From assembly GCA_002720865.1 (NCBI GenBank), contig PBIO01000003.1, forward strand, positions 69,914 through 107,404: a DNA stretch of 37,491 bases. The letters run 5' to 3'. The notes under the pieces were generated by a model that worked only from the letters and a program-made list of their open reading frames with translations, was not told the DNA's origin and searched no databases. The first letter of the stretch is position 1. The number at the start of each line of letters is the position of its first letter. Both the position numbers and the translations under genes were made by a program. This stretch comes from Halobacteriovorax sp. GTDB lineage: Bacteria > Bdellovibrionota > Bacteriovoracia > Bacteriovoracales > Bacteriovoracaceae. Of this stretch, positions 25,150 to 37,491 are shown one piece after another.

Positions 25150-25956
25150 ATGGAAAACGTTAAAAAAAGAAATTTTTTGCTGGCCAGAATCGAGAGGTTA
25201 GGCGCTTCGATAATCGAGGCCGTCGAGGGACTTGGCAGAATTTCTCATTTTGCAGGGAGAGTTTTCTATTGGATGTTTAAAAGACCCTATAGAACTAAGC
25301 TATTAATTAATCAGCTTTATTTTGTCGGCAATAAAAGTATTTTTATCTGTTGTCTAGCTGGCTCATTTACCGGCATGGTCATGGCCTATCAAACTTATTT
25401 TGGTTTTAAGATTATCAATGTGGATTCTTTAGTTGGACCTGTTGTCGCCTTGACTCTAGCTAAGGAGCTTGCTCCAGTGCTGGCAGGTTTAATCGTTGCC
25501 GGCAGGGCGGGAGCAGCCATGGCGGCACAAATAGGAACAATGAAAGTGACTGAGCAAGTTGATGCCCTAGAGGTTATGGGGATTAGCTCCATTCAATACT
25601 TGGCCGTTCCAAGGGTCATTGCAACGACCATCGCACTTCCAATGTTAACCGGGCTATATCTCTTCGTTGGAAATGCTGGTTCAGTGTTGGTTGGAACTAA
25701 GGCATTAATGATTGATGAGGCTATTTATTTAAATAAGCTGGGCGAGTTCATGTTTATGGCAGATATTTGGCAAGGCTTAATAAAAGCAACGGTCTTTGGT
25801 TTTGTTATCTCCTTAGTGGCTACATATTTTGGTTTCCAAGTTCGCTCTGGTGCCGAGGGAGTAGGGAAAGGAACTAACTTAGCTGTGGTATGGGGAATGA
25901 TTTCCGTATTAGTTTTAGATTATTTTTTAACGAGTTTTTTGGTGCATATATTATAA
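25150..25956 (+). CDS. mlaE: MlaE-like ABC transporter permease
   Basis: A 268-aa inner-membrane permease of phospholipid transport. The N-terminal amphipathic helix (about 1-50) precedes five to six hydrophobic helices. The family motif region LTLAKELAPVLAGLIVAGRAG (about 105-125) with GTMKVTEQVDALEVMG following is diagnostic of MlaE/YrbE. Translation continues directly into the ATPase. It pairs with MlaF and MlaD to move phospholipids between the inner membrane and the MCE tunnel; the direction is not readable from sequence. Confidence 0.95.
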   Translation: MENVKKRNFLLARIERLGASIIEAVEGLGRISHFAGRVFYWMFKRPYRTKLLINQLYFVGNKSIFICCLAGSFTGMVMAYQTYFGFKIINVDSLVGPVVALTLAKELAPVLAGLIVAGRAGAAMAAQIGTMKVTEQVDALEVMGISSIQYLAVPRVIATTIALPMLTGLYLFVGNAGSVLVGTKALMIDEAIYLNKLGEFMFMADIWQGLIKATVFGFVISLVATYFGFQVRSGAEGVGKGTNLAVVWGMISVLVLDYFLTSFLVHIL

Positions 25957-25957
25957 G

Positions 25958-26710
25958 ATGTTAAGTTTTGATAAACCTGCCATTAATATGAAAGATCTCT
26001 CTAAAAGTTTTGGAGAGCATTCTATTTTAAAAAATCTAAATTTTGAAATTCCCAAAAATAAAATTGTTACGATCTTAGGTTTTTCAGGAGCGGGAAAATC
26101 CACATTGCTAAAACATATGCTAGGTCTATTGACCCCAACCTCGGGATCAATTTCCGTCTTAGGTCAAAATTTAGAAGAGCTTGAAGAAGATGAACTTAGA
26201 CATTTTAGACAAAACTTTGGAATGCTATTTCAATATGCTGCCTTGTTTGACTCACTATCAACTTACGAGAATGTTGCCTTTCCACTCCGAGAATTTACAA
26301 AGCTAACTGAAGAAGAAATTTTTCTAAGAGTTCAAGATCTCTTGACTTCGGTTGGCCTTGAAGAGAGCTCTTACTACAAACTTCCCTCAGAGCTTTCAGG
26401 TGGAATGAGAAAGAGAGTGGGACTGGCTAGGGCCTTAGCATTAAACCCAAGAATTATGTTATATGACGAGCCTACAACTGGACTCGACCCAATTACGACG
26501 AAGATGGTTAATGATCTAATAGTTTCTATGGCAGAAAAGAATAAAGACCGAGGGATGACATCTGTTATTATCTCTCATGATGTGAAAGCTTCATTAAGTA
26601 TTTCCGACTTTATTGCTTTTCTCGACCGTGGTAGCATTGTTGAGTACTTACCAGCTTCAGAATTCGCCAAATCTGAGAATGAATTGGTGAAAAGATTTAT
26701 TAATTTATAA
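25958..26710 (+). CDS. mlaF: MlaF-like ABC transporter ATPase
   Basis: A 250-aa cytoplasmic ATPase. Walker A GFSGAGKST (about 44-52), Q-loop MLFQYAALFDSLSTYENVAF with the MlaF-type LFDSL, signature LSGGMRKRVGLARAL, Walker B IMLYDEPTTGLDP and switch His in VIISHD are intact. It begins 1 nt after the mlaE stop, indicating tight coupling, and precedes mlaD by 24 nt. Confidence 0.96.
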   Translation: MLSFDKPAINMKDLSKSFGEHSILKNLNFEIPKNKIVTILGFSGAGKSTLLKHMLGLLTPTSGSISVLGQNLEELEEDELRHFRQNFGMLFQYAALFDSLSTYENVAFPLREFTKLTEEEIFLRVQDLLTSVGLEESSYYKLPSELSGGMRKRVGLARALALNPRIMLYDEPTTGLDPITTKMVNDLIVSMAEKNKDRGMTSVIISHDVKASLSISDFIAFLDRGSIVEYLPASEFAKSENELVKRFINL

Positions 26711-26734: not shown

Positions 26735-28117
26735 ATGAATGAACTCAAAGTTGGTCTAATGGCAATCGCGACCATGATTGCAGTAGGCTATATGTCATTC
26801 AAAGTTACATCCAACCAGTCGGGCTTCGGAGAGTACGTTACCTATAGAACCATTATAAGTGATGCCTCAGGCATTTTTCCTAAAACACCCATAAAGGTAG
26901 CGGGGATTAGTGCAGGTCGTATTAAATCAATCGAACTACAAGGAAATCACGCTCTAATTACTTTTGAAGTCTTGGAGAAGATTTTAATATCAAGTGACTC
27001 TAAGCTTGTCGTGAAAACAGTGGGATTTTTAGGAGACAAATATTTAGAGATTCAAATAGGTTCAACTGAAGTTCGGTTGCCAGAAAATGATTTTATTTCC
27101 TCTGAGACAGGGGGGGGAATGGAAAATTTAATGAAGGATGCCTCTGTCGTAATGAGAGATGTAAAAAAAATTGTTCAAGAAATTAAGGACTCACTTGCAC
27201 CGGAAGGACAAAAAGGTCCAATTAAAAAAATCTTGGATGATGTTCAGGCCCTTACTGAAAATGTGAAGGAAGTAACAGCTACTTTAAAAAAGACGATCAC
27301 TGGTAATGAAGAAAGAATTAATAATATCGTTAAGAACTTTGAAAACTTTTCGAAAAACTTAAGCGCTGAAACTGATAAAGGTCTTGAGGGCTCTTCGGTC
27401 GCAAAAATTCAAGAAATTCTAGACAGCACTAAAAGTATGACAGGTGATTTAGAATCGCTTATTGCAGATATAAAAGCTGGTAAAGGAACAGTAGGAAAAC
27501 TACTTGTTGAAGAAGAAATTGCTGATGAAGTTAGGGAAACATTAGCTGGGGTTAAAAAGATTGTTGGAAAAGTAGAAAATATCCGAACTGAATTGGCGGT
27601 CTTTACTGGAGCGAGTACCAATGGTCAGGCAGAAACTGATGCTGCGCTTAAAATATTTCCAGCACCGGAAAGGTTTTATGTTTTAGGAATCACCACAAGT
27701 GAGTTTGGTCCAGAAACCGAAAAAATCACAACCACTAGTGTGAATGGTGGAGCAGCTTCCTCTGTTGTTACCAAGGAAAAAGATAAGGACTCCTACCGTT
27801 TTAACGTACAATTAGGTCGTAAAATACAAAATTGGCATTTTAGAGGCGGTTTAATCGAATCCTCAGGGGGGCTTGGTTTAGACTACGATTTCACTAGAAT
27901 TGGCTCCAGATTTTCCATGGAAGTTTTTGACTATGATGAAGATCTTGGTCCTACGCTTAGGATAAGTAGTCAGCTACAAATGTGGAATGTATTTTACGGT
28001 AAGGTTTCTGTTGATTCGGTTAGCAAAAATTTCGCTGACAATGTAAACTCTACTATAAGCGCAGGCTTAAGATTTAATGATGAAGACTTAAAGGGCCTAA
28101 TAGGGTTCTTCTTTTAA
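26735..28117 (+). CDS. mlaD: MlaD-like MCE protein with a beta-rich C-terminal domain
   Basis: 460 aa. Residues 1-24 are the membrane anchor (LMAIATMIAVGYMSFKV). Residues about 35-120 are the MCE domain (SDASGIFPKTPIKVAGISAG, KTVGFLGDKYLEI). Residues 125-290 are helical with coiled-coil character and the GKGTVGKLLVEEE motif of MCE proteins. Residues 310-460 are alternating beta strands (FRGGLIESSGGLGLDYDF, ISAGLRFNDEDLKG) ending in Phe, as in outer-membrane barrels. E. coli MlaD (183 aa) lacks such a domain. A G8 run at 27110-27117 (codons 126-128) is a possible slippage point. Confidence 0.92.
   Translation: MNELKVGLMAIATMIAVGYMSFKVTSNQSGFGEYVTYRTIISDASGIFPKTPIKVAGISAGRIKSIELQGNHALITFEVLEKILISSDSKLVVKTVGFLGDKYLEIQIGSTEVRLPENDFISSETGGGMENLMKDASVVMRDVKKIVQEIKDSLAPEGQKGPIKKILDDVQALTENVKEVTATLKKTITGNEERINNIVKNFENFSKNLSAETDKGLEGSSVAKIQEILDSTKSMTGDLESLIADIKAGKGTVGKLLVEEEIADEVRETLAGVKKIVGKVENIRTELAVFTGASTNGQAETDAALKIFPAPERFYVLGITTSEFGPETEKITTTSVNGGAASSVVTKEKDKDSYRFNVQLGRKIQNWHFRGGLIESSGGLGLDYDFTRIGSRFSMEVFDYDEDLGPTLRISSQLQMWNVFYGKVSVDSVSKNFADNVNSTISAGLRFNDEDLKGLIGFFF
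27110..27117 (+). repeat. G8 homopolymer tract in mlaD
   Basis: Eight G in a row inside coding sequence of an AT-rich genome (ACA-GGG-GGG-GGA-ATG). One base more or less would truncate MlaD after the MCE domain. Such tracts are typical of phase-variable genes, though a single genome cannot show variation. Confidence 0.6.
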
Positions 28118-28119
28118 TT

Positions 28120-29184
28120 ATGGTTAAAGAAAAAAATTGGCTTATTCGTACGACAAACTATCAGATCTTGGGACCTGTTTCTAAAGAAAAGATAATTGAG
28201 TTTGTTAATAAAGGCTCCTTAAAAGGAGAGGATGAAGTTTCGTCAGGAAATGGTTATTGGTTTTTAATCAAAGAAAAAGATCTCCTTGAAAAATATATCT
28301 TTGGAGATATTCCCCAAACATTTAATCCAATAACTGAAGCTCCTAATATCTTGACTGCCAATCATTCGGCTGACCAAACAGGGACTCATAATAAAATCAC
28401 TCGACCAGTCGCGGCTCCAAAAGTTGACCCCAGTGGAGATGGAGCATTACCGGATGACGGAGACTTAGAATACCCCGATATGAATTTACCTGCTTCTGAT
28501 GATTTGGAATATCCCGACATGGCAGCACCTTCAGGTGAAATGAATATTGATAATATTCAAACGAGTCCGGCGCCATCAGTAAGCCCTGGAATGGCCAAAC
28601 CCACAGCAACCCCTTTGGCTGAGGATGAAATTGAAGGTCTGCTTCCTGACGAGCAAGACTTGGAATATCCGGATTTGTCGGAATTTGGATTAAGTGACCC
28701 TGAAGAAGATATTATTTTAGATGAATTTGAGGAAGGAACTTCCCCAACAAATCCTGCAATAAGTGAATTTGACGAGGAAACTGATCCGGGAATAGCACCA
28801 CCTGATCCTACCCAAGAAATTGAAATCCCAGAGGAAGTTATATCAGCAGCACCTGCCAGACCAGCACCAAAGGCCGCTCGAATTACTCCAACTGCCAAAG
28901 CGAATCCAGCGCCTGCACCAAAGAGAAAAACTGTTCAACGAAAAAAGGCTACAGGGGCGAAGCCAAAGCAAAGAAATGATAAACTTTTATTTCTTTTAAC
29001 TTCAATATTTTTTGTTACATTTTTATTCGCTGCCGTAATCTTTTACTATAAGAAAGTTCTTAATAAGCCATTACCCTTTATTGGTCAGACGATAATCAAT
29101 ACAGTCCTTCCCACTGCATCGGCTCAAGTAGGACAATCTGAAAGTCTCGTTAAAAAAAAAGTCTTTTTAATTTTGAAGAAATAA
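28120..29184 (+). CDS. 5' frame of a frameshift-split gene: GYF_2-like membrane protein
   Basis: 354 codons in the zero frame. Residues about 7-60 resemble a GYF_2-type domain (YQILGPVSKEKIIEFVNKG, GNGYWFLIKEKDL). Residues 90-250 are an acidic Pro/Ala/Asp linker with three copies of DLEYPD(M/L), 251-285 are basic (KAARITPTAKANPAPAPKRK), and 289-311 form one transmembrane helix. The frame ends 13 codons after a run of nine A (29152-29160), while the -1 frame opens exactly there and stays open for 423 codons. The ORF starts 2 nt after mlaD, in the same operon. The full product (768 aa) would need a -1 shift or an extra A. The short form would be a protein of 354 aa. Confidence 0.75.
   Translation: MVKEKNWLIRTTNYQILGPVSKEKIIEFVNKGSLKGEDEVSSGNGYWFLIKEKDLLEKYIFGDIPQTFNPITEAPNILTANHSADQTGTHNKITRPVAAPKVDPSGDGALPDDGDLEYPDMNLPASDDLEYPDMAAPSGEMNIDNIQTSPAPSVSPGMAKPTATPLAEDEIEGLLPDEQDLEYPDLSEFGLSDPEEDIILDEFEEGTSPTNPAISEFDEETDPGIAPPDPTQEIEIPEEVISAAPARPAPKAARITPTAKANPAPAPKRKTVQRKKATGAKPKQRNDKLLFLLTSIFFVTFLFAAVIFYYKKVLNKPLPFIGQTIINTVLPTASAQVGQSESLVKKKVFLILKK
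29152..29160 (+). other. A9 slippery tract at the frame junction
   Basis: Nine consecutive A, read as AAA-AAA-AAA (codons 345-347) in the zero frame. The -1 frame has a TAA at 29151-29153 and is open from 29154 onward. The tract fits both ribosomal -1 slippage (A-AAA-AAA) and polymerase slippage. A sequencing error or true mutation is the alternative. Confidence 0.7.
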
Positions 29185-30425
29185 AAGATGGAGACCTCGT
29201 TTTTACTCCAGAGTTAAGTCTCAAAGGTTTTAATCTTCTCGTTACATCAAATGCAAATTTAAAAGAATGTGAGCAGATAAAAAAGTTTTTCGTTCAATTA
29301 AATATTTTGCTTTCTAAATATCAAGATAAATTAGATATGTATGACGAGTTTATCAATAAATGTTTTCTCGAAATGGATAAAGATTTCCTAACTTTGTTAA
29401 ATATAAGTCCAGAAGAGTTAGAAACCGAAGAAACATTTAAAAAGTATTTGATTGAGGCAGGGACTAATAGGAGTACGAGGGAGTACGCTCTTAGTATCTT
29501 TAAAAAGAAGAGAATTCACCCTAATCAAGAAAAGATTATCTCCAAATTTGTTGAAGTCTCCACTTTAGAAGTACCAAAAACAATGACACCGGAAAAATAT
29601 AAGAAACTATACTCCTACCTAAAAGAGGTGGAAGACTTAGATGAAAATCATCCTCTTAAACATTTCATTGACCTGTCTGTTGCTTTAAGGACGGACAATA
29701 AGGAGTGGATTAAAAGAGTATCGTTAAAAATCATCAATACCTCTTCTCTGCAATATGCAATTTTTATAGATCCTAAAAAAATATCTAAAAAGATATATAT
29801 CCAATTGGTAGAAGCTATTTTTGATACGTTAAAGTTAACAAAGTCTAAATCAGAAGACCCTATGATTACAAAAATGCTAGTAACGAGGTTGACCTTCTTC
29901 TTACCAAATAAATATAAGAATAGGTTTAGGTCAGAATTCAATGGGAACTGGTCTTTAAATGAGCTTAGAGAAGCAGTCTCTAATAGAAAGTATGGTCAAT
30001 CGGCGATAGGGCTTTGGTTCAATGTTTTGGAAAATCGTACTACTGAAGCAGAGGTCAACCGCTTTTTGGATAAAATCCTTAGAGTTAAAACATTGAAAAA
30101 ACTTCCAGTTGAGGAGTTTTGGATTTTAAAACATTTTTATCCCGGCGGAGAGAGAAGAGAAGTTTTAGAAAATAGGCTAGCTTCTTTTAGTAAGTCTCGA
30201 AATAGTGTCCATGACGAGCTAATTTTAAATGAAATTTTAAGTAAAGAAGCTATTAAGAAAAAACTAGAAGCTATTGATCCTATTTTTAAAAAGCCTTTAT
30301 TTAAAGTAAGGAGAGATATTTTTCAATCAGTACTGCAAAGTGGATATCCGTCCCAATTTGCCCTATACAATCTTTTTCTTTTAGGCGAAAAAGACCCTAA
30401 ATTGTTTTGGTGGTTTATTTTATGA
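29154..30425 (+). CDS. 3' frame of the split gene: helical C-terminal region
   Basis: About 423 codons open from the A9 tract to the TGA at 30425. The first 51 codons (29154-29306) have no ATG, and the first possible start is a TTG at 29307 without a good ribosome binding site, so translation most likely enters by frameshift from the upstream frame. The protein is Lys/Leu/Glu-rich and mainly helical (TPEKYKKLYSYLKEVEDLDE, KMLVTRLTFFLPNKYK), with no family recognised. If fused, it follows the single membrane helix of the 5' part. The stop overlaps the next ATG (ATGA), so expression of the tsaC-like gene is tied to this frame. Confidence 0.65.
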   Translation, partial: KKSLFNFEEIKDGDLVFTPELSLKGFNLLVTSNANLKECEQIKKFFVQLNILLSKYQDKLDMYDEFINKCFLEMDKDFLTLLNISPEELETEETFKKYLIEAGTNRSTREYALSIFKKKRIHPNQEKIISKFVEVSTLEVPKTMTPEKYKKLYSYLKEVEDLDENHPLKHFIDLSVALRTDNKEWIKRVSLKIINTSSLQYAIFIDPKKISKKIYIQLVEAIFDTLKLTKSKSEDPMITKMLVTRLTFFLPNKYKNRFRSEFNGNWSLNELREAVSNRKYGQSAIGLWFNVLENRTTEAEVNRFLDKILRVKTLKKLPVEEFWILKHFYPGGERREVLENRLASFSKSRNSVHDELILNEILSKEAIKKKLEAIDPIFKKPLFKVRRDIFQSVLQSGYPSQFALYNLFLLGEKDPKLFWWFIL

Positions 30426-31009
30426 AAGAAGATGTATTTATTTATCCTACAGATACCGTATGGGGAATTGGTGGAAATATTCATGTAGATGGTATGGCCA
30501 CAAAAGTAAATAAGATTAAAGGCTACGATGAAGTTAAACCTCTATCGATACTTTTTTGTAATCTCGATATGCTTTCTGACTATTTTCAATTGGAACTCTT
30601 TGATAAGGATTGGCTTGAGGGACTTTTTGAAAAACAGGCGACTTTAGGCCTACCTGTAGACTCTTTGAAAATGAACATTCCTAGTGAGGCTTACGGAGGT
30701 TCTACATTTGTATGTGTAAGAGTTCTCTCTACCCCTTTGATTTCTGAGTTAATCGAAAAGGCTGGAGGGCCAGTTTTTACAACAAGCTTTAATGAAAAAG
30801 GAGAAGACCCAATCTTAGAAAGCTCCGCAGCGATTAAGTTAAAGAATAAAGTTTGTCCTAATGCTCAAATTATTGGGGAAGGCATAGAAAACTTAAGTGG
30901 TCATTCCTCAACCATTATTGTCTATAAGGGTAATAATCAGTTCGAGGTTTTAAGGCCTGGTAAAAAGATAGAAGAAATTGAAAAACATATCGCACTACTC
31001 ACAACCTGA
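30422..31009 (+). CDS. TsaC/Sua5/YrdC-domain protein (threonylcarbamoyl-AMP synthase)
   Basis: 195 aa from the ATG at 30422, which overlaps the preceding stop as ATGA. The YrdC fold is shown by IYPTDTVWGIGG near the N-terminus, KGYDEVKPLSILF, FVCVRVLSTPLISELIEK, GGPVFTTSFNEKGEDP and STIIVYK with VLRPGK at the end. The family makes threonylcarbamoyl-AMP for t6A modification of tRNAs reading ANN codons. The usual KxR in the lysine loop is replaced by KIKGYDEVKPL, so activity is likely but not certain. The end overlaps the next frame by 32 nt. Confidence 0.85.
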   Translation: MKEDVFIYPTDTVWGIGGNIHVDGMATKVNKIKGYDEVKPLSILFCNLDMLSDYFQLELFDKDWLEGLFEKQATLGLPVDSLKMNIPSEAYGGSTFVCVRVLSTPLISELIEKAGGPVFTTSFNEKGEDPILESSAAIKLKNKVCPNAQIIGEGIENLSGHSSTIIVYKGNNQFEVLRPGKKIEEIEKHIALLTT

Positions 31010-37167: not shown

Positions 37168-37237
37168 TATTTGCCAAGAAATGGCGCAGAGGGTACCAAT
37201 AATCTCTGCTATCGTAGTTTAACAAAAGTTAATGCGT

Positions 37238-37261
37238 AGCATGCCGGAGGTTCGCCGTGCT
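37238..37261 (+). other. Short hairpin upstream of the histone-like gene
   Basis: AGCATGCC (37238-37245) pairs with GCCGTGCT (37254-37261), with one wobble and one mismatch, around GGAGGTTC. No T run follows, so it is not a convincing terminator; it may be a leader structure of the next gene. The rest of the gap 37168-37286 shows nothing else definite. Confidence 0.3.
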
Positions 37262-37286
37262 TAATAAAATTTTGGAGAAAGTAAAA

Positions 37287-37491
37287 ATGGCCAAAAAGAA
37301 AGCAGCTAAGAAAAAAGTAGCTAAGAAGAAAGTAGCGAAAAAGAAAGTAGCTAAGAAAAAAGTAGCTAAGAAAAAAGTAGCGAAAAAGAAAGTAGCGAAA
37401 AAGAAAGTAGCGAAAAAAGCGGCGAAGAAAAAAGTAGCGAAAAAGAAAGTAGCTAAGAAAAAAGTAGCTAAAAAGAAAGTAGCTAAAAAAG
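37287..37491 (+). CDS. Histone H1-like Lys/Ala/Val pentad-repeat protein (cut by window edge)
   Basis: The frame opens with ATG at 37287 (GGAGAAAG 8 nt upstream) and encodes MAKKKAAKKKVAKKKVAKKK and onward in the same pentad KKKVA for 68 codons, to the edge. Only A, K and V occur after Met, with one variation (KKAAKKK). This resembles bacterial histone H1-like/AlgP-type tails that bind and compact DNA. There is no globular domain within view. The DNA repeats as 15-nt units with alternating AAA/AAG and GCT/GCG codons, so copy number may vary between strains. Confidence 0.85.
   Translation, partial: MAKKKAAKKKVAKKKVAKKKVAKKKVAKKKVAKKKVAKKKVAKKAAKKKVAKKKVAKKKVAKKKVAKK

Follow-up and report, generated by a model that had tools for sequence, protein, structure and literature searches.

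The closest precedent for the gene described here is tssM1 of Citrobacter rodentium, together with the tssM gene of a Yersinia T6SS (PMC4256274). Mass spectrometry of cDNA products demonstrated transcriptional slippage at a run of 11 A in tssM1, and both TssM1 forms and the ratio between them are needed (PMC4256274). Slippage has also been proven for dnaX of Thermus thermophilus, at a run of nine A (PMC5009743), and split dnaX genes are given for 12 genera in PMC3711429. In Blochmannia and Buchnera, frames are likewise joined by polymerase slippage at A tracts (PMC5009743).

The window, which is the whole stretch of 37,491 nucleotides of Halobacteriovorax sp. DNA analysed here (contig PBIO01000003.1), contains a membrane-protein gene split at a run of nine A. 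As in tssM1, the product would be an inner-membrane protein, the A tract is located just before the stop, and added A's would give a long form with a periplasmic C-terminal domain (C domain). Unlike tssM1, which is described from two species, the gene encodes an unrelated protein, its tract is found in 30 genera in any register, and its slippage is predicted from sequence. It shares with the dnaX of T. thermophilus a tract of 9–10 A, two products from one gene, and in-frame and out-of-frame versions across species, whereas the dnaX product is a cytoplasmic clamp-loader subunit. In layout, and leaving homology aside, the protein is also comparable to Bd0075 of Bdellovibrio, a GYF, membrane and TPR protein essential for predation (PMC12034629): both show a cytoplasmic GYF-like domain and an extracytoplasmic helical domain, but no frameshift is reported for Bd0075, and the sampled genomes of the phylum yielded no sequence relative of the present C-terminal part beyond the bacterial family of the window genome. 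A search of the accessible literature found no report of the split gene, and the main text of PMC3711429 names neither Bacteriovorax nor Bdellovibrio.

Layout and predicted products of the split gene

The split gene extends from 28120 to 30425 on the plus strand, and the A9 tract (29152–29160, +; site 2), read AAA AAA AAA GTC in the zero frame, is exactly where the original prediction had placed the break. The zero-frame ORF (28120–29184, +) encodes 354 aa and ends seven sense codons past the tract (VFLILKK*), not 13 as had been counted. The -1 frame (29154–30425, +) contains 423 codons, opens directly behind a TAA at 29151–29153 and ends with a TGA at 30423–30425; it has no good start of its own, as was first noticed, and its earliest ATG, GTG or TTG is the TTG at 29307. 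The next gene (30422–31009, +; Pfam Sua5_yciO_yrdC, E=4e-23), of the Sua5/YciO/YrdC type, is coupled to the -1 frame by the proposed ATGA, its ATG overlapping the stop at 30422–30425. One A inserted at the A9 tract leads to a product of 768 aa, and the two expected lengths, 354 and 768 aa, are those of the frames. Two genomes of the same genus (G001 and G002) show an A9 tract and a -1 relation identical to those of the window gene. The minimal overlap of the two frames, which had been taken as the mark of a recoding site, is not general, since overlaps range from 10 to 232 nt among relatives.

The 354-aa frame shows, in this order, a GYF_2-like domain, an acidic and proline-rich linker, a Lys/Arg-rich stretch, a membrane helix, an AxAQ motif, KKK and the stop. 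The N-terminal domain (28129–28368, +; W-L-I-R-T...I-L-G-P...G-N-G-x-W), recognised by alignment and a sub-threshold Pfam GYF_2 match, is the best conserved part, with a mean identity of 67% in an alignment of 29 rows (A3). Pfam GYF_2 is weakly matched by 24 of the 29 members (best E 5.7e-5), and the window protein scores 16.5 bits against a curated cut-off of 25.8 bits (PF14237); by this cut-off the domain is GYF_2-like and not a PF14237 member. The predicted membrane helix (LLFLLTSIFFVTFLFAAVIFYY) is at 28984–29049 (+), and the Lys/Arg-rich stretch on its N-terminal side suggests, by the positive-inside rule, an N-in, C-out topology. The window gene has a signal-peptidase-like AxAQ motif (ASAQ; 29116–29127, +); of the 75 genomes tabulated below, 67 show AQ and 45 the complete AxAQ at a distance of 3–9 codons before the A run.

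The C domain, encoded in the -1 frame, is poorly conserved (about 20% identity among relatives), but two Cys are invariant or nearly so in 42 relatives. AlphaFold2 gave an all-helical model of low confidence (pLDDT 42) from a two-sequence input. Pfam and NCBIfam searches returned nothing significant for the C domain and, for the whole protein, nothing beyond the sub-threshold GYF_2 match; PDB profile searches with the N-terminal part and with the C domain gave no match. The short form is predicted to consist of a cytoplasmic GYF_2-like domain, an acidic linker and a membrane helix, and the long form of these parts plus a periplasmic helical domain. The two halves are separate genes in G028, G109, G075, G108 and G012, where the C-domain gene has a start of its own and a signal peptide ending in AQ or SQ, from which we infer that the domain belongs in the periplasm and that AxAQ is the export or cleavage site of the joined forms, where signal peptidase may release the C domain.

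Gene and tract among relatives

A profile of the C domain was run over 129 genomes of the order of the window genome, and a sample of 291 genomes was used for the phylum. The domain is present in 94 of the 129 genomes of the order, belonging to 40 of 48 genera; in the phylum sample 76 genomes are positive, all of them of the same family as the window genome, and no sampled genome of the other families contains it. Weak profile matches in G082, G083 and G086 were rejected, as they correspond to LapB/YciM-like TPR proteins, named from sequence, without A tracts.

The loci were oriented and read, and then the site behind AxAQ was tabulated. It contains a run of 9–14 A in 75 genomes of 30 genera, and never 7 or 8: 54 genomes show A10, 11 show A9, six show A11, three show A12 and one shows A14. 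The second half of the gene is at -1 in 63 genomes (26 genera), in frame in 11 (six genera) and at +1 in a single one, G120, whose A11 is possibly a miscalled tract. The 19 genomes outside the 75 include five with a break in the linker (G034, G110, G010 and G129 at -1, and G148 at +1), one with a break within the C domain, the five with separate genes, four that are fused and have no tract at the site, and four that are truncated or not assessable. Relatives with one continuous frame and no tract, which the original prediction had regarded as the sign of a plain mutation, do exist, but only as these four (G018, G150, G024 and G027); the other 11 one-frame genomes carry the tract.

The split gene is real. 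Long-read assemblies do miscall long homopolymers, and the odd registers of G120, G148, G081, G122 and G141 could be such errors; the equal relation is, however, found in dozens of independent genomes, including the complete or few-contig G004, G093 and G011, and both halves and the operon are conserved, which leaves assembly error, sequencing error or gene decay a practically negligible chance. At the window gene itself, an assembly error is refuted by the relatives.

On the tree, which is deep (median end branch of 0.48 changes per column), 15 of the 86 rows are fused, and the fused and split forms are interleaved, requiring at least 10 changes, eight of them forced by starred branches. The frame is thus easily joined and yet the split form persists, which argues that the tract is probably used and not merely tolerated.

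Runs of this length are scarce elsewhere. The sense strand shows about two A9 in 237 kb of coding sequence of the window genome, in which just one of 34 Lys-Lys-Lys sites other than this one reaches A9; for relatives the figure is 2 of 35, counted in the flanking regions and the C domains. Taken together, three of 69 such sites reach A9 or more and none A10, against 75 of 75 at the site behind AxAQ. The window genome (4.9 Mb) contains about eight distinct tracts of at least 10 A, and a genome has about ten exact A10 tracts when both strands are counted, of which one or two often lie in the split gene. At the 2/35 rate, the binomial probability of 75 in 80 is about 1e-86, a value overstated by the relatedness of the genomes, but their tree is a deep one. 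Since Lys codons elsewhere seldom form A9 and the run is kept in the in-frame genomes, the tract is conserved more strictly than the protein alone would demand. In the window genome, an in-frame A10 within a 657-aa ORF (L145) may be another slippage site.

Proposed polymerase slippage and the alternative readings

Programmed transcriptional slippage at the A9 tract is the best explanation of these data, and we consider it likely. The cell very probably relies on slippage at the A run to produce both a short and a long protein, and the slippage is most likely that of RNA polymerase. The polymerase would realign at the A9 tract, and a share of the mRNA would gain one A (or lose two). Faithful mRNA would be translated into the 354-aa form, with a short tail behind the membrane helix, and mRNA with one additional A into the 768-aa form, the rate of slipping setting the ratio of short to long form, as for TssM1 of C. 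rodentium. In relatives with both halves in frame the tract would work in reverse, slippage giving the short form: the 11 in-frame genomes keep A9–A10, and a slip in either direction there leads to a stop within 1–12 codons, so that both forms are predicted under either arrangement. The earlier alternative of a programmed -1 frameshift or polymerase slippage is in this sense supported, as a run of 9–14 A is kept in 75 genomes (30 genera), the second half needing -1 in 63.

The length of the run points to the polymerase. A homopolymer of at least 9 A stands at the frame junction of the window gene and of the 75 genomes, and this length is kept in all three codon phases, which indicates that the total run length is what is maintained. 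The RNA-DNA hybrid measures 9–10 bp and slippage in vivo at 9 A has been described (PMC5009743); the floor of 9 A matches both and favours polymerase slippage. The main rival is programmed -1 ribosomal frameshifting on A_AAA_AAA or A_AAA_AAG, in which the mRNA would be faithful and a fraction of the ribosomes would shift. For it an A7 is enough to give a -1 heptamer at codon position 3, yet runs starting there always have at least 9 A (10–14 in the -1 class). An X_XXY_YYZ heptamer is contained in every tract of A9 or more, as a ribosomal shift would need and as must be counted against slippage, but no other slippery heptamer ever replaces the A run in the 63 genomes. Stimulators are likewise lacking: downstream RNA structure was not found, the folding energy being at the random level (mean z -0.07, one of 63 below -2), and no consistent SD-like element is present upstream of the tract, although SD-like 4-mers are found 5–18 nt upstream in 16 of 75 genomes, against 6 of 75 in the downstream control.

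The direction of the shift speaks for the ribosome. At site 2 it is -1 in 63 genomes, 0 in 11 and +1 in one, so 63 of the 64 out-of-frame genomes need -1, and a single direction among orthologues is a sign of ribosomal frameshifting according to Antonov et al. (PMC3711429). In dnaX slippage, however, longer additions occur in diminishing proportion (PMC5009743), and slippage adding mostly single A's would also yield a near-uniform -1 direction. At the linker tract described below the shift goes both ways, in few genomes and with some tracts perhaps miscalled; the +1 linker tracts of G148, G081, G122 and G141 are impossible by -1 ribosomal frameshifting. A ribosomal shift could truncate the protein in the in-frame genomes too, and to that extent their kept tract fits it, while being listed against it here. 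On balance transcriptional slippage is better supported, and ribosomal frameshifting appears unlikely, with some real chance of being correct.

The dnaX of the window genome itself is split at an A11 (G000:C14:174251-174261, minus strand; locus L147), with a gamma frame of 367 aa and the tau part in the +1/-2 frame, that is, in the direction opposite to that of the A9 gene. Together with the dnaX slippage of Thermus, this supports polymerase slippage at the A9 gene. Of the 30 relatives whose dnaX was read, about 20 have A9–A11 at codon 355–415, mostly in frame; the dnaX genes read from genus g24 lack such a run.

Changes of tract length at replication could instead make the C domain switch between on and off within the population, as phase variation. 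Long homopolymers do mutate, and both in-frame and out-of-frame registers occur; but A9, A10, A11, A12 and A14 are all found at -1 and A10 in both registers, so that length does not set the register, and +1 is found in one of 75 genomes where a third would be expected at random. We regard this as very unlikely. The halves could also be two separate genes, the second expressed by re-initiation. Separate genes, the second with its own start and signal peptide, are the arrangement in the five genomes named above, and these, like the four fused genomes without tract, count against programmed slippage. In the window, the earliest start, TTG 29307, is located downstream of the conserved Gly and of the first Cys, and a protein begun there would have no signal peptide. 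The -1 frame lacks ATG in its first 40 codons in 56 of the 63 split genomes, which makes separate initiation improbable, and lacks ATG, GTG and TTG in its first 20 codons in 55 of them; as a general account, two genes are highly unlikely.

A last possibility shares the mechanism with programmed slippage and not its purpose: indels in the A tract would be tolerated because polymerase slippage rescues the frame, as in Blochmannia and Buchnera, and the short form would be waste. Cases in Blochmannia and Buchnera are scattered and come from decaying endosymbiont genomes, and are not known to include an order-wide conserved site. Neutral rescue would account for the frame-breaking tracts outside site 2, namely those of the linker (G034, G110, G010, G129 and G148) and of the C domain (G105), for the fused share of the tree rows, and for the register of dnaX, which is variable too. 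Against it, a homopolymer of 10 A reverts easily and yet out-of-frame registers last in 26 genera, the tract is kept where the frame is whole and the run could only harm, its position relative to AxAQ is tight, and the genomes of the relatives (1.6–5.6 Mb) are not those of strongly reduced endosymbionts. We think it quite unlikely as the whole explanation.

Used by the cell in this way, the gene would be a natural example of slippage-dependent expression of unusual depth and breadth, covering 30 genera with a protein of about 20% identity and a register that flips repeatedly. It lends itself well to testing whether selection acts on slippage as such, and gene-finding programs will annotate this conserved protein as broken or as two genes.

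The linker tract and the operon

A second tract, of A9–A13, is present in the linker in 37 of 68 genomes. It breaks the frame in five loci (L009, L059, L095, L090 and L125; A9–A11), within a Lys-rich linker before the membrane helix, and the short form would there be soluble. Three genomes (G141, G081 and G122) combine a linker tract that needs +1 with a main tract that needs -1. In G105 (L108) the usual site is fused, and the frame breaks at an A9 (-1) that lies about 80 codons into the C domain. The register of the linker tract varies both ways, which leaves room for a neutral share in the history of the gene. A more speculative idea, which we hold to be possible but doubtful, is that polymerase slippage across the order sets envelope composition in the manner of a fixed dial: the gene's one or two tracts of about A10 would give as many as three products (the GYF part in soluble form, the same part anchored in the membrane, and the complete protein with an exported, perhaps cleaved C domain), and selection would act on the slip rate of the tract whatever frame is encoded.

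Upstream of the split gene, the same operon contains genes encoding the MlaE permease (25150–25956, +; Pfam MlaE, E=2e-70), an MlaF-type ABC ATPase (25958–26710, +; Pfam ABC_tran) and, directly adjacent, a 460-aa MlaD with an MCE domain (26735–28117, +; Pfam MlaD, E=3e-14). MlaD ends in GLIGFFF, and at least 51 of the 82 loci show this C-terminal motif, and an MCE-type neighbour, upstream of the split gene. This operon position suggests that the split-gene protein works with the neighbouring MlaEFD lipid transporter, and the protein would be an unstudied further member of the MlaEFD operon in predatory-type bacteria (Bacteriovorax relatives). The minimal MlaEFD of Veillonella likewise shows mlaE, mlaF and a long mlaD, and the excerpted text of PMC10665443 mentions no GYF protein there. 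The 460-aa MlaD of the window resembles the elongated MlaD of Veillonella (PMC10665443); it combines the MCE domain with a long helical region, and its C terminus (RFNDEDLKGLIGFFF) is like an outer-membrane barrel strand. The end of the window (37209–37490) is of low complexity, with minus-strand repeats that translate to FLATFFLATFF-like sequence.
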